A stretch of 55,044 bases of DNA from Syntrophorhabdaceae bacterium (lineage in GTDB: Bacteria; Desulfobacterota; Syntrophorhabdia; Syntrophorhabdales; Syntrophorhabdaceae). Of this stretch, positions 4,719 to 54,046 are shown one piece after another. The notes beneath the pieces were generated by a model that was given only the letters and a program-made list of their open reading frames with translations, was not told where the DNA came from and searched no databases. Made by a program: the position numbers and the translations under genes. Numbering within the stretch: the first letter of the stretch is position 1; each line of letters starts with the position of its first letter. The stretch covers positions 1 through 55,044 of the forward strand of contig JAGOOA010000015.1 of NCBI GenBank assembly GCA_017992765.1, in the 5' to 3' direction.

Positions 4719-5707
4719 AGATCGGCCTGATAGGGGCAGGCGCCTGGGGTACGGCTTTCGCCCTTCACCTTGCGAGAACGGGAAACAAAGTACTGCTATG
4801 GTTCTTTGAAAGAGAACTTTTCGACATTGCGGAAAAGACAAAGGAGAATTCTTATTACCTTCCCGGCTTTGCCCTACCGGACAATATCTCATTTACCAAT
4901 GACATAAAAAGCGTCACTGAATTTTCCGGGAATATTATTTTTGCCACCCCATCCTTTGCCCTGAGAACGACCGCTGCAATGATCTCTGAAGAGCTACCGG
5001 ACAAACGCGTGCTGATCCTCACAAAGGGGATCGAGAACGGCACAAACCTGTTCATGAGCGAGGTCATCAAAGAGATGACAGCCGGAAGGGCCGGCATCGC
5101 CTCCCTTTCGGGGCCGTCTTTCGCGAAGGAGGTCGCGGAAGGTCTTTTCACATCCACCGTTATAGCTTCAAAGGACAAAGAGCTTTCGCTCTATTTTCAG
5201 AAGATCATACACAGCAATACGTTCCGGGTATATACGAGCGATGACATTGCCGGCGTTGAGCTTGGCGGGGCGATGAAGAATATCATGGCGATCGGCGCTG
5301 GCATTATCCAGGGCCTGGACCTTGGCACCAACACCCTGGCAGCGTACATAACCCGCTCTCTCGCCGAATTGAAGAGGCTGGGAAGGTCGTTGGGCGCAAG
5401 GGACACAACGTTCATGGGGCTTTCCGGAATGGGAGACCTCATACTGACATCCTACGGAAAACTAAGCAGGAACAGGTTTTTCGGCGTTGAGCTCGCACAG
5501 GGAAAAAAGGCGGCAGAGATCATTGAGGGCCAGAAAAGCGTCGTTGAGGGTTATTACACGGCCAAGGCGGCTTACGACCTTTCACGAAAATTGAATGTTG
5601 CAATGCCGATCACCGAAGAGCTCTACAAGATCATATACGAAGGAAAGAACATCCAGGCCTCTCTGCAGGATATCATCAGCAGGGAGTATAAGGAAGAAGA
5701 TCAATAG
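4715..5707 (+). CDS. gpsA: Glycerol-3-phosphate dehydrogenase [NAD(P)+]
   Basis: Cytoplasmic enzyme reducing dihydroxyacetone phosphate to sn-glycerol 3-phosphate for phospholipid synthesis. The 330-aa length is typical. The Rossmann motif is at residues 7-12 (GAGAWG), with the conserved lysines Lys138 in GPSFAKE and Lys188 in GGAMKNI. The ATGA overlap with gyrA indicates translational coupling. Just after the stop comes a heptad repeat block shared with the convergent transporter gene. Confidence 0.96.
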
Positions 5708-5840
5708 CTCATAGTTCATAGCTCATGGTTCATAACAAAAACTAAACAAAGTAAGCAGTAGGAAGTAGGCAGCAGAGGATTTGAGTGCATACTCGCCCTG
5801 ATCTTTGCTGTTGCCATGAGCCATGAGCTATCAGCTATGA
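5706..5840. repeat. Inverted pair of 7-nt repeat arrays between convergent genes
   Basis: Left array (5706-5733) is four heptamers: AGCTCAT, AGTTCAT, AGCTCAT, GGTTCAT. A second array at 5751-5778 reads GTAAGCA, GTAGGAA, GTAGGCA, GCAGAGG. The right array (5813-5840), GCCATGA, GCCATGA, GCTATCA, GCTATGA, is nearly the reverse complement of the left one, so the RNA could fold into a stem of about 28 bp with an 80-nt loop. It begins inside the gpsA stop codon and overlaps the end of the transporter gene, where it supplies the last codons and stop. It may act as a two-way terminator, though there is no clear U tract. Confidence 0.8.
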
Positions 5841-7060
5841 GCTTTATTTTTCACGTTCGGTCCTCCGCCTTTTACCGTGCTTACAATGACAAGGCCGGCG
5901 AGAAACAAGATGGAGATTGACAGGACAGCAGGCCTCTGGTCCCGGAATGTGGAAGATATGAACCCGAACAAAAGGGGGCCGATGATCGCCGATGATTTGC
6001 CTACCATGCTGTAGACGCCAAAGTACTCGGACTCAAATCCGTCAGGGACAAACTGCGCGTAAAAGGCCCTTGTTGCCGCCTGAACCGTTCCCAGCCCGAG
6101 GCCGGCAACGGATGCGATAACCACGAACTGTGCCTTGGTCCCGATGAAATAGACCGTTGTCGTTGTAAGTATCCAAAGCACAAGGGACAGCATGACCACC
6201 CTTTTAGGCCCCCAGTAGTCGATAAAGCGCGCCATGATGAACGCGCCCGCGAGCGCCGTCGCCTGAATGATAAGATATATGCCGATCAGCTCTACCGGTT
6301 TGAACAAAAGGGTCGTGGCGGCGAAAATGCTGGAAAAAACGATGACCGTATTAACGCCGTCTTCATATATAAGGTAGGCAAGGAGAAACCTTCTTTGCTC
6401 TTTATTTATCAGAAGCCTGCGAAAGGTCGATATCGTTGACCTGAGGCCGTCCATAGCTGCCTGACAGGGGCTGACATGGCCCTTTTCGTCACCGGGCAAA
6501 AAGAAAAAAGCCGGCAGCGAAAAGGCGCCGAAAAAGACGGCTACCATAGGCCAGACAAGTTCAATATGGCCGGCTTTCATGATAAGAAGCCCTATAAGGA
6601 GGGATATGATAGAGCCGGCATACCCTATTCCATATCCCCAGGCAGACACCCTGCCCTGGTGCTCCGTGTCGGCAATATCGTTGAGAAAGGCGTTATAAAA
6701 GACAAGCCCTCCCTCAAGACCTATATTGGCAAGAACGATCATCAGAAAACCCTCGACGGCCATTCCTTCTTTGAGAAAGTACAAAGAGGCCGTCATGACC
6801 ACGCAGAGCAGCGTATATGCCATAAGAAACCCTTTCCGCTTCTTTGCGTAGTCCGCCATACCGCCAAGGAAGGGGGAACTAAGGGCAACAAAAGCCATGC
6901 TTAACGCTATTGCCCTGCCCCACCACAGGTCCCCTTCGTTCGACGCGTTGCCGACAACAATGCCAGTGTAATATACAGGGAATATCACCGCTGCGATCAC
7001 AGCGGAGTAGCTCGAATTCGCAAAATCGAAAAGACACCAGGAAAATACTTTTTTATTCAT
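5831..7060 (-). CDS. MFS transporter, UMF1 (Atg22-like) family
   Basis: Inner-membrane protein of 409 aa with about 12 hydrophobic segments. The opening SWCLFDFANSSYSAVI and the C-terminal EYFGVYSMVGKSSAIIGPLLFG are signatures of the UMF1/Atg22 branch of the major facilitator superfamily. Fungal Atg22 exports amino acids from the vacuole; the bacterial substrate is unknown. I start at the ATG at 7060 because homology begins at once; an ATG at 7081 adds seven unsupported residues. The last codons (Ala-His-Ser-stop) fall inside the 5813-5840 heptad array, so the present C-terminus was apparently shaped by the repeat. Confidence 0.85.
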   Translation of the reverse strand: MNKKVFSWCLFDFANSSYSAVIAAVIFPVYYTGIVVGNASNEGDLWWGRAIALSMAFVALSSPFLGGMADYAKKRKGFLMAYTLLCVVMTASLYFLKEGMAVEGFLMIVLANIGLEGGLVFYNAFLNDIADTEHQGRVSAWGYGIGYAGSIISLLIGLLIMKAGHIELVWPMVAVFFGAFSLPAFFFLPGDEKGHVSPCQAAMDGLRSTISTFRRLLINKEQRRFLLAYLIYEDGVNTVIVFSSIFAATTLLFKPVELIGIYLIIQATALAGAFIMARFIDYWGPKRVVMLSLVLWILTTTTVYFIGTKAQFVVIASVAGLGLGTVQAATRAFYAQFVPDGFESEYFGVYSMVGKSSAIIGPLLFGFISSTFRDQRPAVLSISILFLAGLVIVSTVKGGGPNVKNKAHS

Positions 7061-30441: not shown

Positions 30442-30520
30442 AACGACCCCCTTTTTCTTATAATGCTGTATCCTTCTGTTAATGTTATGACAAATACACT
30501 CACCATACAAGAGCAAATGT

Positions 30521-30685
30521 CGTATTTCGTATATCGTATTTAGTATATCGAGATAATGCGTGAGGCGGGGGCGAAATGGGATCGCCACGTCATTTCGTCC
30601 CTCGTGCTATGTCACACGATCTGTAGGAAAATCGTCATTAGATCCTTTTGCAGTTCACTATATACGATATACTATATACTGTTCA
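30521..30685. repeat. Inverted pair of 7-nt arrays enclosing about 95 nt (MITE-like)
   Basis: Left array (30521-30548): CGTATTT, CGTATAT, CGTATTT, AGTATAT. Right array (30651-30685): CAGTTCA, CTATATA, CGATATA, CTATATA, CTGTTCA. The right is an inverted version of the left. The enclosed DNA has its own small inverted repeat (CGAAATG and CATTTCG). Together with the promoter and the next array it fills the 392-nt spacer between galT and the exopolysaccharide operon; no gene is seen. Confidence 0.75.
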
Positions 30686-30708
30686 CGGTTTTTTCATGTG
30701 AATTCAGT

Positions 30709-30736
30709 TTGACAGTCCGTTGCATATTGCTATAAT
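30709..30736 (+). promoter_or_regulatory. Consensus promoter of the exopolysaccharide operon
   Basis: TTGACA (30709-30714) and TATAAT (30731-30736), both perfect sigma70 consensus, are separated by 16 nt. The predicted transcript has a leader of about 90 nt that includes two heptad arrays before the first start codon at 30834. Confidence 0.72.
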
Positions 30737-30756
30737 CTCAATATAAATCTTAGCTT

Positions 30757-30831
30757 CTGGATGCTTGATGCTCGATGCCGGCAAGTACTATAACCGGCTG
30801 ATAGCTGATAGCTGATAGCTGAGAGCTGATA
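30757..30831 (+). repeat. Two heptamer arrays in the leader of the exopolysaccharide operon
   Basis: 30757-30777: CTGGATG, CTTGATG, CTCGATG. 30797-30831: GCTGATA three times, GCTGAGA, GCTGATA. The second array stops 2 nt before the start codon of the first TPR gene, so the only purines available for ribosome binding lie inside the repeat. Confidence 0.8.
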
Positions 30832-30833
30832 AG

Positions 30834-31316
30834 ATGAAAGCGCGGACAGCGATCATAGCGTTATTGTGCATTGCGGCGGCGACCACCCTCGCCTACCGTA
30901 CGATCAATCGCGATTGGGTTATATACAGGCATGCCGAAACGCTGTACAAGAAGAAAGAGTACGTAAAAGCGATACCCTATTATTCGTCGCTGCTGGAGAA
31001 GGGCTTCAAGGACCCCGTTGCGCTGTCGAGGCTCGGCGAGATGTACCTGGCGACATCGGACCTCGATAAGGCCCGGTCCGTTTATGAGGCGATGCTGAGG
31101 AACGACCCGCTCAACATGTGGGCAAGGGTCACCGTCGCGGATATCTACATGAGGCTCGGACAATATGAGAGGACGGTCGGCATATACACGATGCTCCTTC
31201 GCTCCCGGCCTGAGGACCGGCATCTCCATATCCTTCTGGCGCGGGCGCTGACCGCTAAAGGTGATTTCGACGGCGCCATCAGCCACTACAAGATTGCCCT
31301 GGGGGAAGAACGATGA
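30834..31316 (+). CDS. TPR protein, first gene of the exopolysaccharide operon
   Basis: A 160-aa protein with one N-terminal hydrophobic segment (residues 5-21, an uncleaved anchor or signal) followed by three to four tetratricopeptide repeats (for example YKKKEYVKAIPYYSSLLEKG and MRLGQYERTVGIYTMLL). It probably faces the periplasm and acts as a scaffold in a synthase-dependent polysaccharide export system, as TPR parts do in the Pga, Pel and alginate systems. It overlaps the next gene by ATGA. No enzyme motif is seen. Confidence 0.8.
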   Translation: MKARTAIIALLCIAAATTLAYRTINRDWVIYRHAETLYKKKEYVKAIPYYSSLLEKGFKDPVALSRLGEMYLATSDLDKARSVYEAMLRNDPLNMWARVTVADIYMRLGQYERTVGIYTMLLRSRPEDRHLHILLARALTAKGDFDGAISHYKIALGEER

Positions 31317-31939
31317 AACGAAACGCAAAGACGTTTTTAATCGCGTGCTGCGTCATCCTGTCCTTTTTGGTCATTGATGCCGCATACGGCCAGCAGAAGG
31401 CTCCTGAAGGATCGATCGTCCCGAAAAGCGATCAGGTCCCCGAGTGGAAGGCGCGCTGGGAGCTCGCACGGGTATTGGGCTATGCGAAAAGATACGGCGA
31501 AGCCGTTGACGAATATCAAAAGGTCCTCAAGGAGAAGCCCGATCTTCATGAGGCGAAGATAGAGATGGCAAAGACCCTTTTCTGGATGGGGAAGAAAGAT
31601 GAGGCGCTTCGGGCGCTCGAGGAAGTTCCCGTCGCAAAGCTCGACGGCCAGGCGAGATCCGCCCTTGCGGAGATCTATATCTCTCAGAAAAGATATGACA
31701 GGGCGGAACCGTTGCTGCGGGATCTCGTCGCAAAGGACCCGAAAGACCACAGGGCGCGGCTGAAGCTCGCAGAGCTCCTGAGCTGGAATAAAAGATATAA
31801 GGAATCCATCGATGAGTACGAGGCTATCCTGAGCGACCTGCCGGATGATAAGCAGGTGCGCCGCAAGTACGGCCTTGTCCTCATGTGGTCCGGCAGGCAC
31901 AGCGACGCCGCCGCACAGCTGAGGAAGACGCTGGAGTAA
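31313..31939 (+). CDS. Periplasmic TPR protein of the exopolysaccharide operon
   Basis: A 208-aa protein with a clear signal peptide (residues 1-26, ending IDAAYGQQ) and about four TPR units, including YAKRYGEAVDEYQKVLKEKP and WNKRYKESIDEYEAIL. The same WxKRYxxSIxxYE flavour is found in the large porin downstream, so the two probably arose from one repeat family. It is coupled to the gene before (ATGA) and ends 1 nt before the porin start codon. The likely role is a periplasmic bridge between synthase and outer-membrane porin. Confidence 0.8.
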   Translation: MKRNAKTFLIACCVILSFLVIDAAYGQQKAPEGSIVPKSDQVPEWKARWELARVLGYAKRYGEAVDEYQKVLKEKPDLHEAKIEMAKTLFWMGKKDEALRALEEVPVAKLDGQARSALAEIYISQKRYDRAEPLLRDLVAKDPKDHRARLKLAELLSWNKRYKESIDEYEAILSDLPDDKQVRRKYGLVLMWSGRHSDAAAQLRKTLE

Positions 31940-31940
31940 A

Positions 31941-34900
31941 ATGAATATAACGACAGCATATCGTATATCGTATATCGTATATCGGGATCCTAAAGGGAAC
32001 GCCCGGCATCGGCCGTTCGGACCGTTTCTTTGGTACTGCTTTATATGGGGGTTCGTTCTGGTCATGTGCTTTCTCCATGTCCTTCCCGTCTCTGCCTCTG
32101 AGAGGACCATCGTGCCCCCCGGAGAGGCCGTATCGGACTTCGATGCGAGGCTGGCGCTCGCACAGTCGCTCTCCTATGATGAGGCCACGCTCAATGATTC
32201 TGTCCGCGAATATGAGATCCTCAGCAGGGAACAGCCGCGCAATGCCGTTGTCCTTGCCGAGCTGGCCGGCGCGTATGCACGGCTGAAGCGGTACCCGGAG
32301 GCGCTTGAAAGGCTCAAGAAGGCCGTTGCGTTAAAGCCTGACGATAAAGACATCCTTCGTTCTGCCGGGGATGTGCACCTCTACAGCGGCGATCACGCCG
32401 GAGCAGAGACCTATTACAAAAGGGCATACAGCATCGATCCGGGATCAGAGGAGGTAAAAAAGAAGCTGGCCTTTGTCTTGAGCTGGCAAAAAAAGGATAA
32501 CGAGGCCTTACCTCTGTTCCTTGACCTCTACAAAAAATATCCTGACGATAAAGAGACCGCCGTGGAGGCCGCCCGGCTTTATGCAAGGCGCGGCGAGCAC
32601 GCGAGATCCCTGTCGATCCTCGAACACCTCCTTGCCCGGTATCCTGACGATCCGGAGCTGCTCGTTGAGCTCGCAGATATCGAGGCAGGACTCGGCCATG
32701 CAAAACGATGCAGGGAGCTCTACGAAAGGGTGCTCGGGAAAAGGACCGGCGACGACAGGCTCCTATTGCAATATGCCGAGCGAATGAAGCTGTGGGGCGA
32801 CTTTTACAGGGCGGAACGGATCTATGCAAATTGGTTGAAAAAGAACCCGGGAGACGCCGCCGCGATGCTGAAGCTTGCAAAGGTCTATGGGAGCGCACAG
32901 CAGTATGAGAAGGCCGAGGGCGCCTACAGGAAGCTGCTCCTGAAAGACCCGGAGGACACCGGCGCCCTCTTCGGGCTTGCAACGCTCAAGCTCTGGGAAA
33001 AGGATTTCGGGCCATCGCTCATGTATGCCGATCGGGCTCTTTCCATAGAGCCAAAGGACCCTGCCGCGCTTGCGGTAAAAGGAGAGGCGCTCATTTTCCT
33101 GCAGAAGTACAAAGAGGCGCAGGAGATATATATGCTGCTGGCGGGGTCGAAGGGCAACGAGGCGCGGGGTTATCTCGGCGCCGGGAAGGCCTGCCTCAAG
33201 GGGAACGAAAATGAAAATGCAAGGGACCTTTTCAACAAGGCGCTTGAGGCTGCGCCCGATGACGTTGAGGCACGATTCTACGCGGCGGGCTTTCGTGCCG
33301 TTCAGGAAAGACATTACATTGAAAATGTACGGGAAGGCAACAGGCGTAGCCCGTCAAAGCTCACCGCCTGGGCAAACCTCTATGTGCGGCACGGATATTT
33401 CGATGCAGCCATCAGCTTGCTTCAGGATGCGCTGAGCTATGATCCCGATTATTTTCCCGCAAAGATAGCCCTTGCCCAGACCTTCGGCATCAGCCTCCGG
33501 TATGGTCAGTCGATAGCGGCCTACGAAGAGCTTGAAAAGGATCTTCCCGGCAGCTCGAAGATACTCATAGAGCACGCGAGGGTCCTCGGATGGTCCAAGC
33601 GATACGGCGATTCGATCAGCTTATACGAACACGTCCATACGCTCAATCCCGGCGACGCCCTTCCGTTAAAGGAGATGGCGCGCGTCGCCATGTGGGGCAA
33701 GATGCCCGATGAAGCGATGGCGGCCTATCGTTCCCTTCTCGCCCCTTCGGTGGACAGCATGTTATCACAGAAGGCAGTCTCTGTCGTAGAGGCGTCGGAC
33801 GACGATAAAATACGCGAGGAATATGGGCATCTTCAGAGGATCATAAGAGAAGGCTCGATCTACCAGGGATATGAGGCGGTCAGGAAGCCTTTTGAGAACA
33901 ACGATCGGCTGAGGTCCGTCATGATGGATCTGCTTCCGGTATACAGGACGCAGAAGGCCGTGGCCCTCGAAAGCGAGGCAAAAAGGCTCTCCTTCGATAA
34001 CCGCTTCGCCCGTTCCATGCCATATTATGAAGAGCTTATGCGTTTTGATCCCGTGAACGAGGAGGCATATTTCGACTACGCCCAGGTCGAATGCGCCCTC
34101 GGCCTCTGCGACAGAGAGAAGGTCACCTATGGCCGCCTTCTCAATATCGACCCCCTCCACAACCTCGCAGGGATCGCCTTGGAAAGGCAGCAGATAAGGA
34201 AGGAACCTTCATTGAGGCTTGACTACTCTTACTGGATGGAGGACGGCAGGGGCGACCTCGCCCAGATAAGGAGGAACCGGTTCGACCTTGCCCTCGACCT
34301 GCCTGTCCTCTGCAGATACCATTTCAATGTTGTGCTCCACCAGTGGTTCGAAAGGCCGGCCTTCAACCACAGGGCATACGGGGCAACGGGGTTCACCTTC
34401 GGCTTCAACGGCGTGTTCAACGAATATGTGAGGGGCGAGGCAAGCTGGACCTACAAGGACTACGCCAATAACGACCTGAGCGACAGAAACACCGGCAAGG
34501 CGGGCGTGTGGCTCAACCTGAAGGAATACGTGCACATCGGCGCCGGCTATGAAAGGACAGATGAATTGTATAATTATTTCGGTTTAAAACAGGGCACCCA
34601 GGCAGACAGCTGGTGGCTCGGCGCCCGCGCGAACATCACGCGTCGCCTCGACCTCGACGGGAAGGCAAGGTTCATCTCCTACAATGACGACAACGAGGGG
34701 ACGCACTATTCCCTTGCCCTCGGATACGCCTTCACCGATCACCCGAAGGTCTTCAAGGTCGCCCTCTCCGGTGAATACCGCGACACGCAGCACGAGAACA
34801 TCTTCACTTACAGCGGAAGCGACCTTAAGGACATCACCCACCCTTACTGGACACCGAGGAATTACACGGGCGCGGCAATCACCTTCCAATGGCGCCACGA

Positions 34901-35117
34901 TTACTCGAAGCTGTTCTTTTGCGGCAACGAGCTTCGCTTCTACGACCTCCGGACCTCCTTCGGGACCGATTCGGAGAACAACCCTTACGCAAAGATCGAG
35001 GGGGAGCTGCACCATGAGTTCGGAAAGCGGTGGACCCTCGGCCTTAAGGCAATGTGGCACAGCTCGCCGGAGTGGGATGCCAACGGGCTGTGGGCCTTTT
35101 TGAGGTATCGATTCTGA
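31941..35117 (+). CDS. TPR and outer-membrane beta-barrel export porin (PgaA-like architecture)
   Basis: A 1058-aa protein. Residues 28-53 hold the hydrophobic signal segment (WYCFIWGFVLVMCFLHVLPVSA). About residues 60-740 are a long TPR superhelix. The last 300 residues are amphipathic beta strands rich in Tyr, Trp and Gly, ending in RYRF with the terminal phenylalanine used by the BAM machinery. This is the PgaA/AlgK-AlgE plan: export of a polysaccharide through the outer membrane. The only start codon ahead of the signal segment is the ATG at 31941 with GGAG upstream, so codons 6-15 are read through a heptamer array. One nt separates the stop and the synthase ATG. Confidence 0.83.
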   Translation: MNITTAYRISYIVYRDPKGNARHRPFGPFLWYCFIWGFVLVMCFLHVLPVSASERTIVPPGEAVSDFDARLALAQSLSYDEATLNDSVREYEILSREQPRNAVVLAELAGAYARLKRYPEALERLKKAVALKPDDKDILRSAGDVHLYSGDHAGAETYYKRAYSIDPGSEEVKKKLAFVLSWQKKDNEALPLFLDLYKKYPDDKETAVEAARLYARRGEHARSLSILEHLLARYPDDPELLVELADIEAGLGHAKRCRELYERVLGKRTGDDRLLLQYAERMKLWGDFYRAERIYANWLKKNPGDAAAMLKLAKVYGSAQQYEKAEGAYRKLLLKDPEDTGALFGLATLKLWEKDFGPSLMYADRALSIEPKDPAALAVKGEALIFLQKYKEAQEIYMLLAGSKGNEARGYLGAGKACLKGNENENARDLFNKALEAAPDDVEARFYAAGFRAVQERHYIENVREGNRRSPSKLTAWANLYVRHGYFDAAISLLQDALSYDPDYFPAKIALAQTFGISLRYGQSIAAYEELEKDLPGSSKILIEHARVLGWSKRYGDSISLYEHVHTLNPGDALPLKEMARVAMWGKMPDEAMAAYRSLLAPSVDSMLSQKAVSVVEASDDDKIREEYGHLQRIIREGSIYQGYEAVRKPFENNDRLRSVMMDLLPVYRTQKAVALESEAKRLSFDNRFARSMPYYEELMRFDPVNEEAYFDYAQVECALGLCDREKVTYGRLLNIDPLHNLAGIALERQQIRKEPSLRLDYSYWMEDGRGDLAQIRRNRFDLALDLPVLCRYHFNVVLHQWFERPAFNHRAYGATGFTFGFNGVFNEYVRGEASWTYKDYANNDLSDRNTGKAGVWLNLKEYVHIGAGYERTDELYNYFGLKQGTQADSWWLGARANITRRLDLDGKARFISYNDDNEGTHYSLALGYAFTDHPKVFKVALSGEYRDTQHENIFTYSGSDLKDITHPYWTPRNYTGAAITFQWRHDYSKLFFCGNELRFYDLRTSFGTDSENNPYAKIEGELHHEFGKRWTLGLKAMWHSSPEWDANGLWAFLRYRF
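31958..31985 (+). repeat. Heptamer array inside the porin leader codons
   Basis: Four tandem units, ATATCGT three times and ATATCGG, occupy codons 6-15 of the porin gene. It is the same unit as in the spacer before purF (51806-51840). A 7-nt change shifts the reading frame. Confidence 0.88.
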
Positions 35118-35118
35118 T

Positions 35119-36759
35119 ATGGAAGACAAGACATCACGCCAGCTCGCTCTGAAAATAGTGGTGATCATGGCACTGCCGATCGCCGCCATGGTCTTTGCCG
35201 CCACCTATCTGATAACGAGGGTCGTCCTTTTCTTTATTACCGACTACGCCTGGTACGAGAAGCTTCTCGCCTTCTTCCTCCTCCTTGCCGAGATCTTTAT
35301 CCTCACCCACGGCATCGGGTACTTTCTCGAGATCTTTTCCGTTGCATGGTCCAAAAGGACCCTTGCCAGGCGCTTCGACCCCCTCGTATCCCTTGACCGC
35401 CACCCTCCCGTCGCCGTTGTCATGCCCTCGTACAAAGAGCCCCTCGAGGTGGTGAAGAATTCGCTCATTACCTTTTATAATCTCTCCTATCCGAACAAGT
35501 ACATCTATTTTCTCGATGACACGCGATACGACACTAACTGGGACACGCCGGAGAACATGGAGGCCTACAAACGGTCTATCGAAGAGCTCTGCCAACATAT
35601 CGGCGTGGGGCTTTTCAGAAGGAAGTGGCACGGCGCAAAGGCAGGCATCATCAACGATTTCCTGCAATATCTCGGCGGCGACGGGAATGAGGACTTCAAG
35701 TTCTATAACTATTCCGGCAGGGCAAAGCCGGAGGTCGAAAAATACCTCGTGGTCTTTGACGCCGACTCCAACCCCTTCCCGGATTTTCTGGAACCGCTGG
35801 TCGCATACATGGAAAAAACCCCGCGCCTCGCCTTCATCCAGACCCCGCAGTATTACATCAATTTCGAGTCGAACCGCATTGCCCGCGCAGCCGGTCTCCA
35901 GCAGACGGTCTTCTATGAGTACATATGCGAGGGCAAGGCGTCGAAGGATGCCACCTTCTGCTGCGGCACCAACGTTCTCTTCAGGAGAGAGGCCCTTTCC
36001 GATGTCGGAGGGTTTGATGAATCCTCCGTCACCGAGGATTTTGCCACATCCCTCCAGTTCCACTTGAAAAAATGGAAGACCACCTACCTGAACAGGGTGC
36101 GCACGTTCCAGATGGGCCCCGAGGACCTGGGAGGATACTTCAAGCAGCAGTTCCGGTGGTCGCTGGGCACCATCGGCCTGCTCCCGAGGGTGATAGGCCG
36201 TTTTCTCATCAAGCCCCACGCACTGACCCTCTTGCAGTGGTGGGAATATTTTCTGTCCACGACGTGGTATTTCATCGGGTTTGTCTTCTTCATCATGCTC
36301 ATCTGCCCCGTGGTCTTTCTCTTCTTTAACGTACCCGTCTATTTCGCCTTGCCCGAGTTCTATTTCCTCGTCTTCTTCCCCTATATCATCGTTACCTTCA
36401 CTACGTTCTACTGGACGCTGAAGCAGAGGAACTATGCCGTAAAGGACCTTGTGACAGGCCAACTCCTTACCTTCGTGACCTTCCCCGTGTTCATGAAATC
36501 CGCGGTCCTCGCGCTTCTGGGATTTAAAGGTACATTCGGCATCACGCCCAAGGGGACGAGCCGGGCCCTTCCGTTGAGCGCAATGTGGGCGCAGCTCGCG
36601 ATGCTCGTCGTATGCTTCGCCGCGGCAGTATGGGGAGTGAACAGGATCATATATGAGCAGCAGCCCCTGGGCGGCCTGCTGGTGAACACCTTCTGGTGCC
36701 TGTACCACGCAGTCATACTCTCCTCTATCTTCTATTTCAACAAGCCGGTGAAAGAATGA
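35119..36759 (+). CDS. Processive GT2 glycosyltransferase, BcsA-like polysaccharide synthase
   Basis: Inner-membrane synthase of 546 aa. Two membrane helices (about 12-40 and 48-74) precede the GT-A domain, which has VVMPSYKE (100-107), the UDP-binding Asp133-Asp134, DAD (214-216), TED (305-307) and QQFRW (343-347): the full set for processive beta-glycan synthesis. Four or more helices follow, with FGITPKG recalling the gating-loop TPKG motif of cellulose and mixed-linkage glucan synthases. The C-terminal PilZ domain of BcsA is missing; a separate PilZ gene is located downstream. It couples to GH26 by ATGA. Product: a beta-linked polysaccharide, identity unknown. Confidence 0.9.
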   Translation: MEDKTSRQLALKIVVIMALPIAAMVFAATYLITRVVLFFITDYAWYEKLLAFFLLLAEIFILTHGIGYFLEIFSVAWSKRTLARRFDPLVSLDRHPPVAVVMPSYKEPLEVVKNSLITFYNLSYPNKYIYFLDDTRYDTNWDTPENMEAYKRSIEELCQHIGVGLFRRKWHGAKAGIINDFLQYLGGDGNEDFKFYNYSGRAKPEVEKYLVVFDADSNPFPDFLEPLVAYMEKTPRLAFIQTPQYYINFESNRIARAAGLQQTVFYEYICEGKASKDATFCCGTNVLFRREALSDVGGFDESSVTEDFATSLQFHLKKWKTTYLNRVRTFQMGPEDLGGYFKQQFRWSLGTIGLLPRVIGRFLIKPHALTLLQWWEYFLSTTWYFIGFVFFIMLICPVVFLFFNVPVYFALPEFYFLVFFPYIIVTFTTFYWTLKQRNYAVKDLVTGQLLTFVTFPVFMKSAVLALLGFKGTFGITPKGTSRALPLSAMWAQLAMLVVCFAAAVWGVNRIIYEQQPLGGLLVNTFWCLYHAVILSSIFYFNKPVKE

Positions 36760-37793
36760 ACGGATCATTTAATCCATACAGGCCATTGGCAGCCATATTG
36801 TTCTGTTGTCTCATTCTCTCGAGCAACGTATACGCACATGGATCGTTGATGTGGGGCTTTGCGCTCGACGGATACCCCGTAACGGACGACAGGCTACGCG
36901 CCGTGGAGGAAGAGACGGGAATAAGGCCCGACATCGTCGTCTTCTTCCTTCAATGGCCGGAGCACGGGGGTTCCGACGCAGCGGGCTTTCCCCGCGAGAG
37001 CCTCGACGCCATATGGAAGAGAGGGGCGGCCCCCTGCATCACCTGGGAGCCAATGTATTATGAAGATGGCAAAGAGGTCATGATCTCTTACGAGCGCTTG
37101 CTGAAAGGCGAATATGACCGATACATCAGGCGATTTGCAGAAGGCGCTGCGAGGTGGGAGAAGCCCGTCATGATACGGTTCGCGCACGAGATGAACATCA
37201 AAAGATACCACTGGGGTACCGGGGAAAACGAGTACGGGCCGAAAAGTCCCTCCCTATACAAAAAGATGTTCCGGTATATTGTTGACCGTTTCAGAAAGGC
37301 CGGCGCCGGTAATGTGCTATGGGTATACTGCCCCAACGCCGAATCCGTCCCCAATGCATCATACGACCCTTCCGCCTCCTGGAACACCCTGTCACAATAT
37401 TATCCGGGCAATGCGTACGTGGACATCCTGGGTATAGACGGATACAACTGGGGCACAACGCGGAAGAAAGAGAAACATGGCTGGGGCAGCAGCTGGAAGA
37501 CATTTGCGGAGATATTTGAACTTCCATGCAGGGAATTGCGGGCTGTCGCTCCGTCAAAACCGCTTATTATTTTTGAGACTGCCACCACCGGGCAAGGCGG
37601 CAACAAGGCGGAATGGGTGAAGGGCGCGATTAACGTAGCGGGGAAATTGGGGATAGAGGGCATCGTCTGGTTCCAGTCGAACAAGGAGCTTGACTGGCGC
37701 ATCAACATGAACGGCGACAGGAGCTACGTATCGCTGATTCGGTCATCGCCTTCTCAAGAATGGATAGAGCGGTTCAGAAGGAACAGGCGATGA
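36756..37793 (+). CDS. Secreted GH26 family glycoside hydrolase
   Basis: A 345-aa protein with a signal peptide (residues 1-27, ending NVYAHG) and a single (beta/alpha)8 domain. The acid/base is predicted as Glu145 in RFAHEMN and the nucleophile as Glu274 in IIFETATTG; NVLWVYCPN and LGIDGYNWG are GH26 hallmarks. GH26 enzymes cut beta-mannans or beta-1,3/1,4-glucans, so the polymer made by the adjoining synthase may be one of these. It likely trims or edits the polymer, like BcsZ in cellulose systems. The start at 36756 gives the ATGA overlap with the synthase; a longer frame from 36696 is rejected. Confidence 0.87.
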   Translation: MNGSFNPYRPLAAILFCCLILSSNVYAHGSLMWGFALDGYPVTDDRLRAVEEETGIRPDIVVFFLQWPEHGGSDAAGFPRESLDAIWKRGAAPCITWEPMYYEDGKEVMISYERLLKGEYDRYIRRFAEGAARWEKPVMIRFAHEMNIKRYHWGTGENEYGPKSPSLYKKMFRYIVDRFRKAGAGNVLWVYCPNAESVPNASYDPSASWNTLSQYYPGNAYVDILGIDGYNWGTTRKKEKHGWGSSWKTFAEIFELPCRELRAVAPSKPLIIFETATTGQGGNKAEWVKGAINVAGKLGIEGIVWFQSNKELDWRINMNGDRSYVSLIRSSPSQEWIERFRRNRR

Positions 37794-40477
37794 AGATACG
37801 CGGATTCAGCCTAAAGACCAAGATGGCAACGGTCGTTTCGGTCCTCTTCCTGTTCATCTTTGCCGCCGGCGCGATCATGTTCGAAAGCACCTTCGAGGAG
37901 CACTTCAAGAGGGCCATCGCCGAACAGCAGTTCGAGCTTGTCTCAAAAACGGTCAAGGATATCGATATGCAGATTCGCGAGGCACAAAAAATACTCGTCA
38001 GCGTATCGAAGATAATCCCTCTCGATGACATCAACAACTACATCGCGATGCAGAGGCACCTTGAGAAGATCGTTGAAACAAGGTTCTTCATCAAGACATT
38101 CTTCGACAACGGCATACTCCTCTATTCGAAGGCAGGCAGGGTCATAGGTGAGGTCCCCTATTCCCTGGAACGATACGGGAAGGACCTTTCCTACAGGGAA
38201 TATTTTCAATATACGGTAAAGGCGCGTATACCTTACATCTCAAAGCCATATCGCTCCATAAAGCCGCCTTACGACCCGGTGGTGATGTTCACTGTGCCCA
38301 TATTCAACAAGAGGAGCGAGCTTGTCGCGGTCCTCGGCGGCTCCGTTTCCCTCACCAAGGACACGACGCTTGGAGGCATCGCAAATGTTAAGGTAGGGAA
38401 GACAGGCTACATGTATCTGTACAACACAGACCGGACCATCATAGTTCACCCTGACAAGACAAGGATTCTCCGAAATGACGTTCCCCCGGGTGCGAACAGG
38501 CTCTTTGACAAGGCAATTAACGAATGGTTCGAAGGAAGCGGCGAAACGGTGACCTCAAGGGGCCTGCACGTTATCGGGACATTCAAGCGGTTCCAGAACA
38601 CGGACTGGATACTGGCCGCCAATTTTCCAATAAAAGAGGCCTATGCGCCGATCATAAAGGCACGATGGTACATGGTAGGCTACACGGCGCTTGGCATCTT
38701 CCTGTCCATACTGATCATCCTGATCGTTATGAGAAGGAACCTGTCGCCTCTTTCGGAGCTTGCCACGCAGGCAGAGGCCATAGGCAGGGCCTGGGAGCGC
38801 ATTCATTCTGTCAAAATAGAAACAAAAGGAGAAATAGGGGCCCTCGCATTCTCTTTCAACGAGATGCTGAAGAGGCTGCGTGACCGGGAAACGTCCTTGA
38901 AGAAGACCCTTGAAGAACTTCAGAAATTATACAATGCGGTGGAGCACAGCTCTGCAGTGGTTATCATTACGGATACACAAGGCGCCATAGAGTATGTCAA
39001 TCCGAAATTTGTTCAGGTAACAGGCTATGAAAAGTCAGAGGTCTTAGGCGGTACGCCGAGCATCCTCAAATCAGGGGAGACACTGCCTGAGACATACAAA
39101 GAATTGTGGGACACCATACAATCCGGCGAGGAATGGCAGGGGATATTCCATAATAAGAAGAAAAATGGCGAATTTTACTGGGCTTCTGCATCCATCTCAC
39201 CCTTGAAAGATACGAAAGGCGCGATAACCCACTTTGTCGGTATCCAGGAAGATATTACCGCCATCAAGCTATTCGAACAGGAACTGAAAAAGGCAAAAGA
39301 GGCAGCCGAAAGCGCAAACCAGGCCAAGAGCGACTTCCTGGCAGGCATGAGCCACGAGATACGGACTCCCATGAACGCAATCATAGGCATGAGCGAGCTG
39401 ATGATGGAAACGCCTCTCAATGACGAGCAGAAAAGATATGTCGAAACCCTTATGCATGCAGGAGAGAATCTTCTCAACATAATCAACGATATCCTCGACA
39501 TCTCGAAGATCGAGGCAGGCTATCTTGAGCTTGAATCAACGGAATTCAACCTTCAGGATTTATTGGACAAGGCATGCGATATCATGGCGATACGCGCGCG
39601 CGACAAGGGGATCGGGCTTGTCTGTAGCGTTCTCCCTGATGTGCCGGTCCATCTGATAGGGGACCCGGTCCGGCTCAGGCAGGTTATTCTCAACCTCCTC
39701 GGCAACGCAATAAAGTTTACCGACAACGGGGAGGTGGCTTTGGAAGTACGCAAAGAAAGCTCCGATGCGGGAACTCTTCTGTTTTCAATTCGCGATACCG
39801 GTATCGGTATACCGGAAGATAAGGTCAACAAGATATTTGAAAAATTTACACAGGCCGATTCGTCGACGACAAGGAAATATGGAGGAACGGGGCTCGGGTT
39901 GGCCATATCAAAGCGCCTCGTCAAGCTCATGGGAGGCAGGATATGGGTTACAAGCGCCGTCGGCGCGGGAAGCACATTCTATTTTACCGCCGGCTTTCAG
40001 CTTCAGGTGGAAAAGCTGAAGGCGGAACCTGTCGTTGCCCCAGTGCCCGAACGTGAAGTATTAAGGCCGCTGCGCATACTCCTCGTGGACGATTCCGAGG
40101 ACAACAGGCTCCTCATCAGGTCGTTCCTGAAAAAGACGCCCTATGTGATCGATACGGCAAACAATGGGCTTGCCGCAGTTGAGCAATACAAGACCGCGCC
40201 ATACGACCTCATCCTCATGGATATCCAGATGCCTGTGATGGATGGCTACGCAGCTACAAAAGAGATACGGGACTGGGAAAGATCGAATAAACGGGAACCC
40301 ACCCCTGTGCTCGCCCTCACCGCTTACGCCCTTCAGGAAGAAATACGGAAAAGTTATGACGCGGGCTGCAGCGGCCATCTGACAAAGCCGATCAAAAAGA
40401 ACGACCTGTTATATGCTATAGCGGCATATTCCAAAAAAACTTTGGGAAAAGACCAAAAGATAGTTAACAAGGGGTAA
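37790..40477 (+). CDS. Hybrid sensor histidine kinase (dCache-HAMP-PAS-HisKA-HATPase-REC)
   Basis: An 895-aa inner-membrane kinase. A membrane helix (about 12-31), a periplasmic double-Cache domain (35-290), a second helix (about 293-313), HAMP, a PAS/PAC domain (about 380-500), HisKA with His522 (MSHEIRTPMN), HATPase_c (GGTGLGLAISKRLV) and a receiver with Asp811 (LMDIQMPVMDG). The ATGA overlap with the GH26 gene puts it in the polysaccharide operon. The receiver needs a histidine phosphotransfer partner, which is encoded 6 nt downstream. The ligand of the Cache domain is unknown. Confidence 0.93.
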   Translation: MKIRGFSLKTKMATVVSVLFLFIFAAGAIMFESTFEEHFKRAIAEQQFELVSKTVKDIDMQIREAQKILVSVSKIIPLDDINNYIAMQRHLEKIVETRFFIKTFFDNGILLYSKAGRVIGEVPYSLERYGKDLSYREYFQYTVKARIPYISKPYRSIKPPYDPVVMFTVPIFNKRSELVAVLGGSVSLTKDTTLGGIANVKVGKTGYMYLYNTDRTIIVHPDKTRILRNDVPPGANRLFDKAINEWFEGSGETVTSRGLHVIGTFKRFQNTDWILAANFPIKEAYAPIIKARWYMVGYTALGIFLSILIILIVMRRNLSPLSELATQAEAIGRAWERIHSVKIETKGEIGALAFSFNEMLKRLRDRETSLKKTLEELQKLYNAVEHSSAVVIITDTQGAIEYVNPKFVQVTGYEKSEVLGGTPSILKSGETLPETYKELWDTIQSGEEWQGIFHNKKKNGEFYWASASISPLKDTKGAITHFVGIQEDITAIKLFEQELKKAKEAAESANQAKSDFLAGMSHEIRTPMNAIIGMSELMMETPLNDEQKRYVETLMHAGENLLNIINDILDISKIEAGYLELESTEFNLQDLLDKACDIMAIRARDKGIGLVCSVLPDVPVHLIGDPVRLRQVILNLLGNAIKFTDNGEVALEVRKESSDAGTLLFSIRDTGIGIPEDKVNKIFEKFTQADSSTTRKYGGTGLGLAISKRLVKLMGGRIWVTSAVGAGSTFYFTAGFQLQVEKLKAEPVVAPVPEREVLRPLRILLVDDSEDNRLLIRSFLKKTPYVIDTANNGLAAVEQYKTAPYDLILMDIQMPVMDGYAATKEIRDWERSNKREPTPVLALTAYALQEEIRKSYDAGCSGHLTKPIKKNDLLYAIAAYSKKTLGKDQKIVNKG

Positions 40478-40483
40478 GGCGCC

Positions 40484-40783
40484 ATGGACGACAATACCAT
40501 CTCAATAGACAAAGACCTTGAAGACCTCATTCCGGGCTATCTTGAAAACAGGCTCAGGGATATCGCATCAATAGAGGAAGCCCTCATAAAAAACGACTTT
40601 GAAACGATAAGGATACTGGGCCACAGCATGAAAGGCAGCGGCGGCGGCTACGGATTCGCCGCAATAACAGAGATCGGGAAAAGGATCGAAGAGGCGGCGA
40701 AAAAGATGGACAAAAAGGTCATCACGGAACAGGTAGAGGAACTGTCCACATACCTGCGCAATATTACAATCAAGTATGAATAA
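40484..40783 (+). CDS. HPt phosphotransfer protein
   Basis: A 99-aa helical protein with the phosphotransfer motif ILGHSMKGSGGGYGF, His47 being the phosphorylated residue. Placed directly after the hybrid kinase, it should take phosphate from Asp811 of that kinase and pass it to another receiver; the nearest candidate is the REC-PP2C protein at 41799. AAGGGGTAAGG precedes the ATG. Confidence 0.92.
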   Translation: MDDNTISIDKDLEDLIPGYLENRLRDIASIEEALIKNDFETIRILGHSMKGSGGGYGFAAITEIGKRIEEAAKKMDKKVITEQVEELSTYLRNITIKYE

Positions 40784-40790
40784 TATAAAT

Positions 40791-40870
40791 TCAGCTATCA
40801 GCTTTCAGCCCAAAGCCTATAAGGACCTTTTTGCTTCAGCTGACGGCTGTATGCTGACTGCTGACGGCTG
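40791..40870. repeat. Inverted heptamer arrays between HPt and PilZ genes
   Basis: 40791-40811: TCAGCTA, TCAGCTT, TCAGCCC. 40839-40866: GCTGACG, GCTGTAT, GCTGACT, GCTGACG. The two are inverted versions of each other with GCTGA as core, and related to the GCTGATA array at 30797. They fill the spacer between the convergent genes. Confidence 0.78.
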
Positions 40871-40873
40871 CCT

Positions 40874-41683
40874 TTATAGTGAATGTATATACAGCAGCAC
40901 TACGGTGTTGTAATTTGAGTAAAGCCTTTTTTCAAGGTTTTTGATCGCGTTGAGATAGGACATCACGCTTTCGTTTGAAAATGCTATCTTGAAAAGCTCT
41001 ATATATATCTCGGATTCGATGATCGGCCTTAGCTCTTCAAGATCAATGTACTTCGCGGTCTCAGACTGGGGTATGGTTTTATCCTTGATCTTTTCATAAA
41101 GCGCTTCCAATTCAGCACAATGCTCTTTGACCCTTTTGTGGATGTCAATAAGCAGGGACTCCTTGAGCTGGGGATATTCTTCCTGGGGATACCCGGAGAT
41201 CCTGGAAAAGAAAGTGATCAGGTGCTCCAGGTAAATGTCCACGCCTCTTTTCAGAAAAGCGGCATCTTTGATAACGTTTAACAGCACATTGCTGTCTGTC
41301 TCAAAATAATTAAAATTAACAGAGATCGATGAAGGTTCGATGGAGATGAATGCCGGGTATTGCGGTTGCTCCATGCTGCTCAAGCGGGCGCCGCAAAGCT
41401 CTCCCTGAGATGCCTCATCCCACTTTGTCCATAAAATGACGCTTTGGTTGTAGTAGTTGTCCTTGATATGCAGGGGCAAATGGAAATTTATTACATCATT
41501 CTTTTGTATCTTCGTCCTGTTGACAACCCAGTTCGGCACGACGAACTTGATCCCTCCCCTGCTTATATCAATGACAATATATTGGAAACATGAATGGTCC
41601 TCTTCCCGCGTGCCCAGGAACGGGAGGTTTATTGACCCGATGTCAAACCTCCCTTCTCGCCTTCTTTCGATAGCTTCAACCAT
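40874..41683 (-). CDS. PilZ-domain protein (predicted c-di-GMP receptor)
   Basis: A 269-aa cytoplasmic protein. The N-terminal 110 residues form a PilZ domain with the two c-di-GMP motifs: an arginine cluster ERRREGRF (RxxxR) and DISRGG (D/NxSxxG). The C-terminal 150 residues are alpha-helical without a recognised domain. It is the only gene on this strand in the polysaccharide cluster. Since the synthase lacks its own PilZ domain, this protein may provide the c-di-GMP control in trans; that is inference. Confidence 0.87.
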   Translation of the reverse strand: MVEAIERRREGRFDIGSINLPFLGTREEDHSCFQYIVIDISRGGIKFVVPNWVVNRTKIQKNDVINFHLPLHIKDNYYNQSVILWTKWDEASQGELCGARLSSMEQPQYPAFISIEPSSISVNFNYFETDSNVLLNVIKDAAFLKRGVDIYLEHLITFFSRISGYPQEEYPQLKESLLIDIHKRVKEHCAELEALYEKIKDKTIPQSETAKYIDLEELRPIIESEIYIELFKIAFSNESVMSYLNAIKNLEKRLYSNYNTVVLLYIHSL

Positions 41684-41798
41684 TTATACGGACAACCCTT
41701 ACGTATATGATACATTGCCAGTCTCAAAATTGCTATATCAGGCGAAAAAAAAACTGTATTATTTAAAAAAACATCTGTAATATTACCTAATACGGCTG

Positions 41799-42995
41799 AT
41801 GAAAGAAAAGATACTGATCGTTGATGACAGCGAAGATATACGGATACTTTTGCGGCGTATATTAAAGGCGGCAGGATACGAGGTCGTCGAGGCCGCCGAC
41901 GGCGACAAGGCCCTCCGTGATATCTCCGGACTTATGCCCGACCTTGTCCTTCTCGACATCGTAATGCCCGGCATCAGCGGATTCGAGGTCTGCGAAACCG
42001 TTAAGAGAATGGATGCTGCCGCAGACATACCGGTCATTTTTTTATCTGCCAAGTCAGATGCTGCCGACAAGGTCCGGGGCCTCGAAATAGGCGGATCTGA
42101 CTATATCACAAAACCCTTTGACAGAGGGGAGGTCCTGGCGCGCGTCGAGAACCAGCTTAAAATAAGGAGGCTCACAAGGGAACTGGTGAGAACGAACATC
42201 GAGCTTACCGACAAGCAAAAACGCCTTGACGATGACCTGAAGGCAGCGGCAGGTATCCAGCAGAGCCTTTTTCCTAAGAGCATGCCCGATATAAAGAATC
42301 TCGCCATTGCATGGAAATTCATGCCCTCTTATATGATCGGAGGCGATATCTTTAACGTATTTCGTCTTGACGAATCTCACGTGGGCATCTACATGGTGGA
42401 TGTCAGCGGCCACGGCGTGCCTTCGGCGCTCATAACCGTTTCCGTTTCGCAGGCATTGAACCCCGACAGCGGGAACGTCACAAAGAAGAAGACATCCAGG
42501 CCGCCCGGCTACGAAATAATATCCCCAAAGGCAGTTCTCGAAGCCCTCGACCACGAATACCCCATAGAGAGGTTCGATAAATATTTCACCATCGTTTACC
42601 TGATCATAGACACAAAAACGGGGGATCTCATATACGGCAATGCCGCCCACCCTGCCCCGATCATTATGCGCTCAAACGGCAACAGCAAATATCTTGATAA
42701 GGGCGGCACTATTATAGGGATGAACAATATTGTGCCCTTTGAGGAAGAGCAGATCACCCTGCAAAAAGGAGACAAGGTCATTCTCTATACCGACGGTATT
42801 ATTGAGTATCAGAACAACGACGGAGAATATTTCGGAGAGGACCGCCTCTCTTCTATCCTGAACAGGTCACGAAAAGAAAACGTTGAAGCGCTGCTTGACG
42901 GCATCCTTCATTCAATTGTTGATTTCGGTAAAGGAAGAGAATTTCAGGACGACATAACGCTTATCGCCATCGAATACAAAGGCACGGCCGTATGA
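41799..42995 (+). CDS. Response regulator with SpoIIE/RsbU-type PP2C phosphatase
   Basis: A 398-aa protein: receiver (1-122, Asp53 in LLDIVMPG), a coiled-coil linker, and a PP2C-type Ser/Thr phosphatase (about 160-395) with the metal ligands in GGDIF, VDVSGHGVPSAL, YTDGIIE and QDDITLI. When phosphorylated, most likely by the HPt above, it should dephosphorylate the STAS protein encoded next. The layout resembles HsbR of Pseudomonas and part of SypE in Vibrio fischeri, both of which control biofilm through STAS proteins. Confidence 0.92.
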   Translation: MKEKILIVDDSEDIRILLRRILKAAGYEVVEAADGDKALRDISGLMPDLVLLDIVMPGISGFEVCETVKRMDAAADIPVIFLSAKSDAADKVRGLEIGGSDYITKPFDRGEVLARVENQLKIRRLTRELVRTNIELTDKQKRLDDDLKAAAGIQQSLFPKSMPDIKNLAIAWKFMPSYMIGGDIFNVFRLDESHVGIYMVDVSGHGVPSALITVSVSQALNPDSGNVTKKKTSRPPGYEIISPKAVLEALDHEYPIERFDKYFTIVYLIIDTKTGDLIYGNAAHPAPIIMRSNGNSKYLDKGGTIIGMNNIVPFEEEQITLQKGDKVILYTDGIIEYQNNDGEYFGEDRLSSILNRSRKENVEALLDGILHSIVDFGKGREFQDDITLIAIEYKGTAV

Positions 42996-43009
42996 TGGCG
43001 CGTTCATCC

Positions 43010-43065
43010 CAAATTTGTCATTTGGTCGTTCTATATTCGATATGCGACATACTATATACGATATA
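43010..43065 (+). repeat. Heptamer array abutting the STAS ribosome binding site
   Basis: Consecutive heptamers: CAAATTT, GTCATTT, GGTCGTT, CTATATT, CGATATG, CGACATA, CTATATA, CGATATA. AGGAGG and the ATG of the STAS gene follow at once. The CTATATA/CGATATA units are those seen at 30651-30685. Confidence 0.8.
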
Positions 43066-43079
43066 TCAGGAGGATTCGT

Positions 43080-43421
43080 ATGCATTTAGAGAGCGTTAAG
43101 ACGGGCGGCGTGCTGATCGTTAAGCCGTCAGAGAAAAGGATCGACGCATCGGTTGCGACGGAGTTCAAGGGCAAAATGGTCGACTGGATCAACGAGGGAA
43201 ACACAAAGATAATCCTCGATCTGGTGAATGTAGATTTCATTGACAGCAGCGGCCTCGGGGCGATCGTCTCCAGCCTTAAGGCTATAGGGGGCAACGGCGA
43301 TCTTGTCATTTCCGGTTTACAGGAGACCGTGATGGGCCTTTTCCGCCTGACCAGGATGAACAAGGTGTTTCAGATCTTTTCCTCCGAGCAGGAAGCGATC
43401 CAGGCCCTTTCGAAGATGTGA
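43080..43421 (+). CDS. STAS-domain anti-sigma factor antagonist (RsbV-like)
   Basis: A 113-aa single STAS domain. The phosphorylation loop reads FIDSSGLGA, with the second serine (Ser57) at the position phosphorylated in SpoIIAA. The unphosphorylated form should bind the RsbW-like kinase encoded 15 nt downstream; the PP2C protein upstream removes the phosphate. A strong AGGAGG precedes the ATG, directly after a heptad array. Confidence 0.93.
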   Translation: MHLESVKTGGVLIVKPSEKRIDASVATEFKGKMVDWINEGNTKIILDLVNVDFIDSSGLGAIVSSLKAIGGNGDLVISGLQETVMGLFRLTRMNKVFQIFSSEQEAIQALSKM

Positions 43422-43436
43422 GCCCCGAAAATAGTT

Positions 43437-43880
43437 ATGCCCGAACCGATGCCGCAGAAAAAGATCACCTTTTTGATCGACAGCACCCTTGATAACGTCT
43501 CCCTTGCGGGCGTTGCAGTACGCGGGATATGCAGCTACCTTTCTTTGAGCGAGGCAGACGCGTATTACCTCGAGCTATGCGTCGTTGAAGCGGTCAATAA
43601 TGCTATCAAGCATGCCTATAACTCCGAAGCGGGAAATGCCGTGGAGATCAACATAACCTATTCAAAGGACTGCATATCCTTTGAGATAAGCGACTGGGGG
43701 ATAAAAATGGACTCTCAAGGTCCGCCTCGTTTAAACTTTGATGCCGGGAACCTTGTTATGATCCCGGAACACGGGATGGGTCTTTTTATCATAGATTCTG
43801 TTATGGATGAGGTAGCATACCGGTCAGATGGCGGAAAAAATACATTGACTATGCGTAAATATTTCCATTATAAAAATTAA
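43437..43880 (+). CDS. RsbW-like anti-sigma serine kinase
   Basis: A 147-aa GHKL ATPase of the HATPase_c_2 type. The N box is CVVEAVNNAIKHAYN, the G1 region ISDWGIKM and the G2 region GMGLFIIDSVMDE. It should phosphorylate the STAS partner and, in the classical scheme, hold a sigma factor. No sigma gene is near, so its target may be encoded elsewhere or be another protein. No good ribosome binding site is visible; another Met lies at residue 5. Confidence 0.9.
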   Translation: MPEPMPQKKITFLIDSTLDNVSLAGVAVRGICSYLSLSEADAYYLELCVVEAVNNAIKHAYNSEAGNAVEINITYSKDCISFEISDWGIKMDSQGPPRLNFDAGNLVMIPEHGMGLFIIDSVMDEVAYRSDGGKNTLTMRKYFHYKN

Positions 43881-43907
43881 GATTCTTTAAACAATGAGCT
43901 TGTTGAA

Positions 43908-46607: not shown

Positions 46608-46612
46608 AACCA

Positions 46613-47428: not shown

Positions 47429-47512
47429 TTACGATATTTTCTAACCAAATCCGAATCACGAATTGCTCAACTCTCAACAATTGCCTGCGTAGCGCTTCGG
47501 GGTGTCGCTATT

Positions 47513-47550
47513 CCCTCTCCCCTTCGCGGGAGAGGGTCAGGGAGAGGGGG
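47513..47550. repeat. GC-rich hairpin repeat (CCCTCTCCC type)
   Basis: CCCTCTCCC (47513-47521) and GGGAGAGGG (47528-47536) form a 9-bp stem with a 6-nt loop; a second GGGAGAGGG at 47540-47548 could compete. It lies between convergent genes and may help to end transcription, although no U tract follows. Similar sequences are dispersed in many bacterial genomes. Confidence 0.65.
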
Positions 47551-47584
47551 GAAAGGCTGTTTTCAACGTGATCGGAGGTTCGGG

Positions 47585-49036: not shown

Positions 49037-49064
49037 AGCCACAACCCCCTTTGCAATGTGGACC

Positions 49065-51149: not shown

Positions 51150-51244
51150 TTTTCTTTTCCATTTTCAGAATTTTATATTACAATACTATTGTGCCCTTTT
51201 AAAGGAAACAAAGGCTGCCTTCGAAGTACTATCATGGTCAATGT

Positions 51245-51802: not shown

Positions 51803-51805
51803 TAA

Positions 51806-51946
51806 ATCGTATATCGTATATCGTATATCGTATATCGGAAGAATTATAAAGAAAACCCTTCGCCGTAACGCGTTCAGCAGAAGGGTAGAAGAAAATTGTT
51901 CTCTTTGTCTTTCACTTTTCACTTTTCACTTTTCACCTTTCACCTT
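51806..51946. repeat. Two heptamer arrays before purF
   Basis: 51806-51840: ATCGTAT four times and ATCGGAA. 51908-51942: a pyrimidine-rich array with period 7, CTTTTCA repeated and then CCTTTCA. The first has the same unit as the porin leader array (31958) and is not otherwise related to purF. They fill the 164-nt gap between the macrodomain gene and purF. Confidence 0.85.
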
Positions 51947-51966
51947 TATCAGTCGTTGGAGAATGT

Positions 51967-53349: not shown

Positions 53350-53351
53350 AC

Positions 53352-53909: not shown

Positions 53910-54011
53910 TATATTATAATAATTATTGATACTCGATAACAATAGCTTGCTCTTTGATTCTATAAAGCATCAGGTGAGGAGTATTAAAGACAGGCAATGC
54001 GTCTTTCCTCA

Positions 54012-54046
54012 TTACGCCTAACGCCTTACGACTTACGCCTCACGGG
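54012..54046. repeat. Heptamer array between pyrE and engB
   Basis: Five units: TTACGCC, TAACGCC, TTACGAC, TTACGCC, TCACGGG. It ends 4 nt before the engB stop codon. The remaining spacer (53910-54011) is AT-rich and shows no gene. Confidence 0.85.

Follow-up and report, generated by a model that had tools for sequence, protein, structure and literature searches.

A four-unit heptamer array in a porin-like leader: probable in-frame capture of intergenic-type repeats in a deltaproteobacterial genus

The question raised by this locus is whether a short ATATCGT array at the 5' end of a gene for a putative outer-membrane porin acts as a phase-variable switch. The gene was found in a window of 55,044 nucleotides (the whole stretch of DNA that was analysed, from a Syntrophorhabdaceae bacterium). 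The genome carrying the window is referred to as G000 and six congeners as G001-G006; the genus is a deltaproteobacterial MAG genus. Tandem Repeats Finder placed the array (ATATCGTATATCGTATATCGTATATCG) at 31958-31984, with 27 bases, 3.9 perfect copies and a score of 54. The original prediction had put it in codons 6-15 of a 1058-aa ORF, which was correct, and had extended it to 31985, which was one base too far. Base 31985 is G, and a complete fourth ATATCGT unit needs T at this position. The features of the window are collected in Table 1.

Table 1. Features of the array-bearing gene and heptamer arrays in the window
Feature	Position	Strand	Basis
ATATCGT array, 3.9 perfect copies, codons 6-15 of the 1058-aa ORF	31958..31984	+	Sequence, Tandem Repeats Finder
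1058-aa secreted protein with a leader (about 53 codons), a TPR region and, at the C-terminus, a putative outer-membrane barrel ending in Phe	31941..35117	+	
Coupled stop/start TAA-A-ATG with GGAG just upstream; close stop/start kept in most congeners	31937..31943	+	
Signal-peptide hydrophobic core and cleavage region, codons 32-53	32034..32099	+	Sequence reading
Upstream gene for a 208-aa TPR protein, probably translationally coupled	31313..31939	+	
ATATCGT array, intergenic; equal length in G004	51806..51837	+	
TTTCACT/TTTCACC array, intergenic; equal length in G004	51910..51947	+	
GATGCTC heptamers, intergenic; equal length in G002 and G005	30755..30781	+	
AGCTGAT array, intergenic, abuts the start of the gene at 30834; of equal length and with point changes in both G002 and G005	30794..30832	+	
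TCGTATA heptamers, intergenic; G002 has a 7-nt gap plus 3 nt	30516..30548	+	
ATAGCTC/ATAGTTC heptamers forming the left half of an inverted pair	5704..5734	+	
CATGAGC heptamers forming the right half of the inverted pair; other heptamers occupy this site in G005	5813..5843	+	
TTACGCC heptamers, intergenic; G001 has the GATACTT type instead	54010..54045	+	

The array is translated as YRISYIV (cyclic) in every frame, without stops. The gain or loss of one unit was claimed to shift the frame, and the computed stops agreed with this: translation ends at codon 20 after the gain of one unit and at codon 113 after the loss of one. The loss or gain of two units leads to stops at codons 13 and 120, respectively. 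The frame is kept when three units are gained or lost, and only multiples of three have this effect. The array therefore has the anatomy of a contingency locus, namely a unit that is not a multiple of three, a position in the 5' coding region and early stops in both other frames. Slipped-strand mispairing at such a locus would leave the gene on at four or seven units and off at three, five or six, similar to the CTCTT repeats of Neisseria opa, a precedent for coding leader repeats (PMC3960869).

The array was found to be well above chance level, since four perfect period-7 runs with at least 14 matches were present in the window, compared to 0-1 runs at any other period in the range 4-15. It belongs to a large genome-wide population of period-7 arrays, which the original prediction had missed. 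Sampling covered 519 kb of G000 and 733 kb of G005. In the G000 sample, arrays with at least 12 of 14 positions matching numbered 108 at lag 7, and 1, 14, 8, 12, 1 and 4 at lags 5, 6, 8, 9, 10 and 11. Intergenic DNA makes up 11.5%, and 99 of the 108 arrays were intergenic, where genes were called by a simple codon-usage script that set the porin start at 32064 and thus counted the porin array as intergenic. The population has the form of dispersed intergenic heptamer arrays, with many tandem arrays genome-wide, mostly between genes. A total of 71 unit types was observed among the G000 arrays, including ATATCGT, AGCTGAT, CTCATAG, TTTCACC, GATGCTC and CGCCTTA. Array density per kb was 3.7 in convergent gaps, 1.6 in tandem gaps and 1.1 in divergent gaps. 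Inverted pairs are frequent: 29 of 170 arrays had an inverted partner (score at least 14) within their own region, and 7 of 170 had one in other regions. A ten-copy TCTCTGC array, far longer than the other arrays, was observed at the extreme end of a G000 contig (L056:1-72), and contigs may break at long heptamer arrays of this kind.

ATATCGT-like arrays are essentially genus-specific. ATATCGT-like places numbered 255 in G000, 9-230 across the six congeners and 0-3 in the other genera of the family, where overlapping places were counted separately and arrays are fewer than places; a reversed-pattern control gave 0-1 everywhere. Three exact ATATCGT copies in a row were found in two genera only among 395 genomes of the phylum, and the unit therefore does not form a wide family. 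AGCTGAT arrays are more scattered within the family. None of the described units GGGACCG, TAACTGA and GGGAATC appeared in a list of the 40 commonest unit types of intergenic arrays in G000, so the arrays are alike in kind to those families and not members of them. An origin of the porin array by chance or as an assembly artefact is extremely improbable. The source is a MAG consensus, and nothing was found in support of an artefact; separate assemblies share the array (G006, and G005 in degenerate form), and the period-7 excess is large throughout the genome.

The stop codon of the upstream TPR gene ends at 31939, and the ATG of the ORF follows at 31941; translation of the two genes is therefore probably coupled. 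The name porin, given to the product by the original prediction, was found to be plausible for its TPR region and C-terminal Phe, but the barrel was left unconfirmed by structure prediction from a two-sequence alignment, which gave a pLDDT of 30. The label is based on TPR hits, the C-terminal Phe and a neighbouring cellulose-synthase-like glycosyltransferase, and not on a structure. Assignment to the PgaA poly-GlcNAc export porins (TIGR03939) was rejected at 57 bits, compared to a curated cut-off of 367, with the best stretch in the TPR region. At 35119-37793, adjoining the gene, a CelA-like glycosyltransferase (TIGR03030, 215 bits, below the cut-off) and a GH26 protein, with endoglucanase H as the best solved match (E 1e-38), were observed. 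A candidate locus for beta-glucan synthesis and export, formed together with the TPR/putative-barrel gene, is a guess. Putative Sec signal-peptide features (a positively charged n-region, a hydrophobic core and a cleavage site) were read from the sequence in the seven orthologs, and the array is predicted to encode the n-region of a putative extended signal peptide.

Orthologs of the 1058-aa protein were found in all six congeners. One genome per species was compared, many of them MAGs, with home-made gene calls, array thresholds and signal-peptide calls. A count of units in related strains had been proposed, and at the species level it gave a divided answer. The G006 leader has four ATATCGT units, as in G000, in genes that are 73% identical at the nucleotide level. 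The G005 leader has about three, one of them mutated, followed by a 66-nt in-frame loss. TTTCACC-type heptamers take the place of ATATCGT in G001. The G002 leader contains an inverted AACCAAT/TTGGTTA heptamer pair (a hairpin, DNA fold z -4.5), whose right arm codes for part of the hydrophobic core. G003 and G004 have a plain short signal peptide without an array. Every ortholog has an in-frame leader free of stops, with a start codon at the upstream stop codon or shortly after it. Although the leaders of G000 and G002 are unrelated, their flanks are 97% identical, and this exchange is therefore recent.

The porin array is identical at 30 of 30 nucleotides between G000 and G006, compared to 67% over the next 15 codons, which differ at 15 of 45 bases. 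Differences between the two species at codon positions 1, 2 and 3 number 5/7/3 in leader codons 17-31 and 184/159/471 in the mature part, where identity at third positions is only 53%. This part of the leader is therefore not conserved as protein. Lack of protein conservation would fit a translation start beyond the array, such as ATG 32064, which would leave the array untranslated. This ATG is, as originally stated, the only in-frame ATG, GTG or TTG from the array to the hydrophobic core, and it was picked as start by the simple codon-usage gene caller. However, the position is CTG in G005 and G006, and a start there would leave only about 12 uncharged residues ahead of the cleavage region. 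The leaders of five species differ greatly and yet all preserve the frame, and the orthologs retain a start near the upstream stop codon. A downstream start is accordingly very unlikely, and the claim that the array is translated held.

The complete identity of the array in two diverged genes could also mean that it is kept for a function at the nucleotide level, either as an unstructured AU-rich start that aids coupled translation or as a shared protein-binding site. The TAACTGA repeats of Beggiatoaceae have been proposed to act in translation (PMC4679880). Such a function is improbable for the porin array, as other species carry unrelated heptamers or none at the site and the RNA fold of the start region is ordinary (z +0.5). 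Furthermore, the highest array density, between convergent genes, is not suggestive of upstream regulation.

A second gene with heptamers in its leader came from a search for arrays that would be translated from a start codon lying ahead of them. In G000, 6 of 113 near-start arrays were possible leader cases, few of them convincing. The gene (L154-L160) appears, from its sequence by eye, to encode a Memo/AMMECR1-like secreted protein. Heptamers follow directly after the ATG in six of the seven species, with the units GAGCGGA in G000, CAGCAGA in G002, GTTCAAA in G003, G004 and G005, and GTTCGGA in G006. In G001, 1.6 units are left, and the leader is shorter than that of G000 by exactly 21 nt, which equals 7 codons or 3 units. 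Identity between G000 and G002 was 96.6% in the mature protein and 80.5% in the leader. Substitutions in the leader array were concerted at lag 7 (19 of 27, compared to 2-6 at other lags). At L039:15435-15465, the start region of a prepilin-like protein (MNYEPSAMSKQRGFTLIE...) was observed within a CATGAGC-type heptamer array, and this array may therefore supply the start codon. A period-7 array at an ORF start (L044:10878) was rejected as a further leader; the ORF is spurious, and the real gene appears, by eye, to lie on the opposite strand.

Turnover between species was studied in intergenic arrays aligned with G002, G004 and G005. No length change was seen in 10 of 18 and a clean 7-nt gap in one, in a set biased toward arrays that are still alignable, replaced arrays being common. 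These intergenic arrays gave no sign of concerted unit change, with 5 of 22 substitutions at lag 7, compared to 2-6 at other lags. In gaps with arrays in both species, the units often differ. G005 arrays were present in 10 of 23 gaps with G000 arrays and in 1 of 31 gaps without (Fisher p 0.0004, with gap length uncontrolled and the porin leader as one of the ten shared gaps), from which it follows that sites persist while units are exchanged. Several unit types are stacked within one gap at 5704-5843 and at 30516-30832. Most genes at 45795-53909 encode proteins 90-96% identical to those of G004, and most at 30834-45302 encode proteins with 47-79% identity; this mosaic probably arose by recombination. 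A 45-bp unit in two copies was observed at the right end of the window (54925-55012).

These results bear on the proposed switch in both directions. The perfect array in G000 and G006, despite diverged adjoining codons, and the concerted change of leader units in the second gene could both come from a locus that slips. On the other hand, only four units are present, in equal number in G000 and G006, which is low compared to the 13-38 copies at the H. influenzae hmw genes (PMC2651432). The orthologs with heptamer leaders are all in frame, some other species have different heptamers in the porin leader, and genome-wide the arrays mostly sit between genes and not in leaders. Alignable intergenic arrays, which are free of any frame constraint, are mostly equal in length across species, and this was counted against active switching. 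Of the original prediction, the translated array and the frameshift anatomy thus stood, while active switching did not find support, and a contingency locus is an unlikely explanation.

The explanation that we favour, and regard as probable, is that signal-peptide leaders are permissive and take up and exchange heptamer arrays of the intergenic type in frame, without high-rate switching. It draws on direct observation of the period-7 population, of in-frame replacement across species, of a second similar gene and of many aligned arrays of equal length. Short period-7 arrays of about 2-5 units, otherwise intergenic, would occur throughout the genus, and one of them would have been incorporated into the porin gene. 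Placed between the probably coupled start codon and the hydrophobic core, it would encode the n-region of a leader that accepts almost any stop-free sequence provided that the frame is kept. The leader is presumed to be permissive and cleaved off. Over evolution, leader arrays would be inserted, swapped for other heptamers or trimmed, all in frame, by insertion or recombination with other arrays. The frame would fix the porin unit number (3n+1), and switching would be rare. Against in-frame capture and exchange, a perfect array beside diverged codons could be explained by slippage. The 30/30 identity of the porin array and the concerted units of the second gene could be due to slippage, conversion between arrays or selection at the nucleotide level; slippage turnover in a coding leader would imply off states. 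A wider form of the favoured explanation is possible, although tentative: in this genus, secreted proteins may in general have leaders that serve as sites of in-frame exchange and are rebuilt from intergenic repeat DNA, with species-specific units and with the frame, the start and the mature protein kept.

Several bacterial groups have an excess of heptamer arrays, and there is no consensus on the origin or function of these arrays. With seven species, persisting sites with changing units and coding cases, the origin and turnover of period-7 arrays become testable, and in coding arrays the reading frame is a record of the length changes that survived. The case illustrates how repeat DNA can turn into part of a protein leader. 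In regards to phase variation, it indicates that repeat anatomy by itself is weak evidence.

Among known systems, the Neisseria opa genes share with the porin array a repeat that is not a multiple of three in the leader-coding region (CTCTT; PMC3960869), and the H. influenzae hmw genes share the heptanucleotide unit (PMC2651432). Copy number in opa and hmw varies between cells or strains, whereas the porin array has few copies, and just as many in one diverged species as in the other. Autotransporter extended signal peptides have a long N-terminal extension ahead of an ordinary signal peptide in a large exported protein (PMC2805444). The putative porin leader is similarly extended, but its extension appears to be heptamer-derived and not conserved. 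The Gmet_H4 elements of G. metallireducens (GGGACCG) are dispersed four-heptanucleotide elements between and within genes, and multicopy repeats of G. bemidjiensis are inserted in genes without frameshifts (PMC2700814, PMC2996986). Dispersed four-unit heptamer arrays and in-gene insertion without frameshift are seen here as well; unlike in Geobacter, many unit types occur per genome, sites persist while the unit changes, and signal-peptide leaders are hit. Beggiatoaceae and some Cyanobacteria have abundant intergenic direct TAACTGA heptamers, some near start codons, and heptamer-repeat indels between close Cyanothece strains are mostly in 7-nt steps (PMC4679880). In Beggiatoaceae one unit dominates, upstream of start codons and with the proposed role in translation, whereas here many units are enriched between convergent genes and one array lies inside coding sequence. 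The GGGAATC/GGGGAYT repeats of Xanthomonas and Nostoc form genome-wide heptamer arrays with about 4 units preferred and a non-coding excess (PMC4692102). They are G-rich and quadruplex-forming, in contrast to the AT-rich ATATCGT, which has no G-tracts. In kind, the arrays of this genus resemble the Geobacter, Beggiatoaceae and Xanthomonas/Nostoc families, from which they differ in their units and in the additional exchange in leaders.
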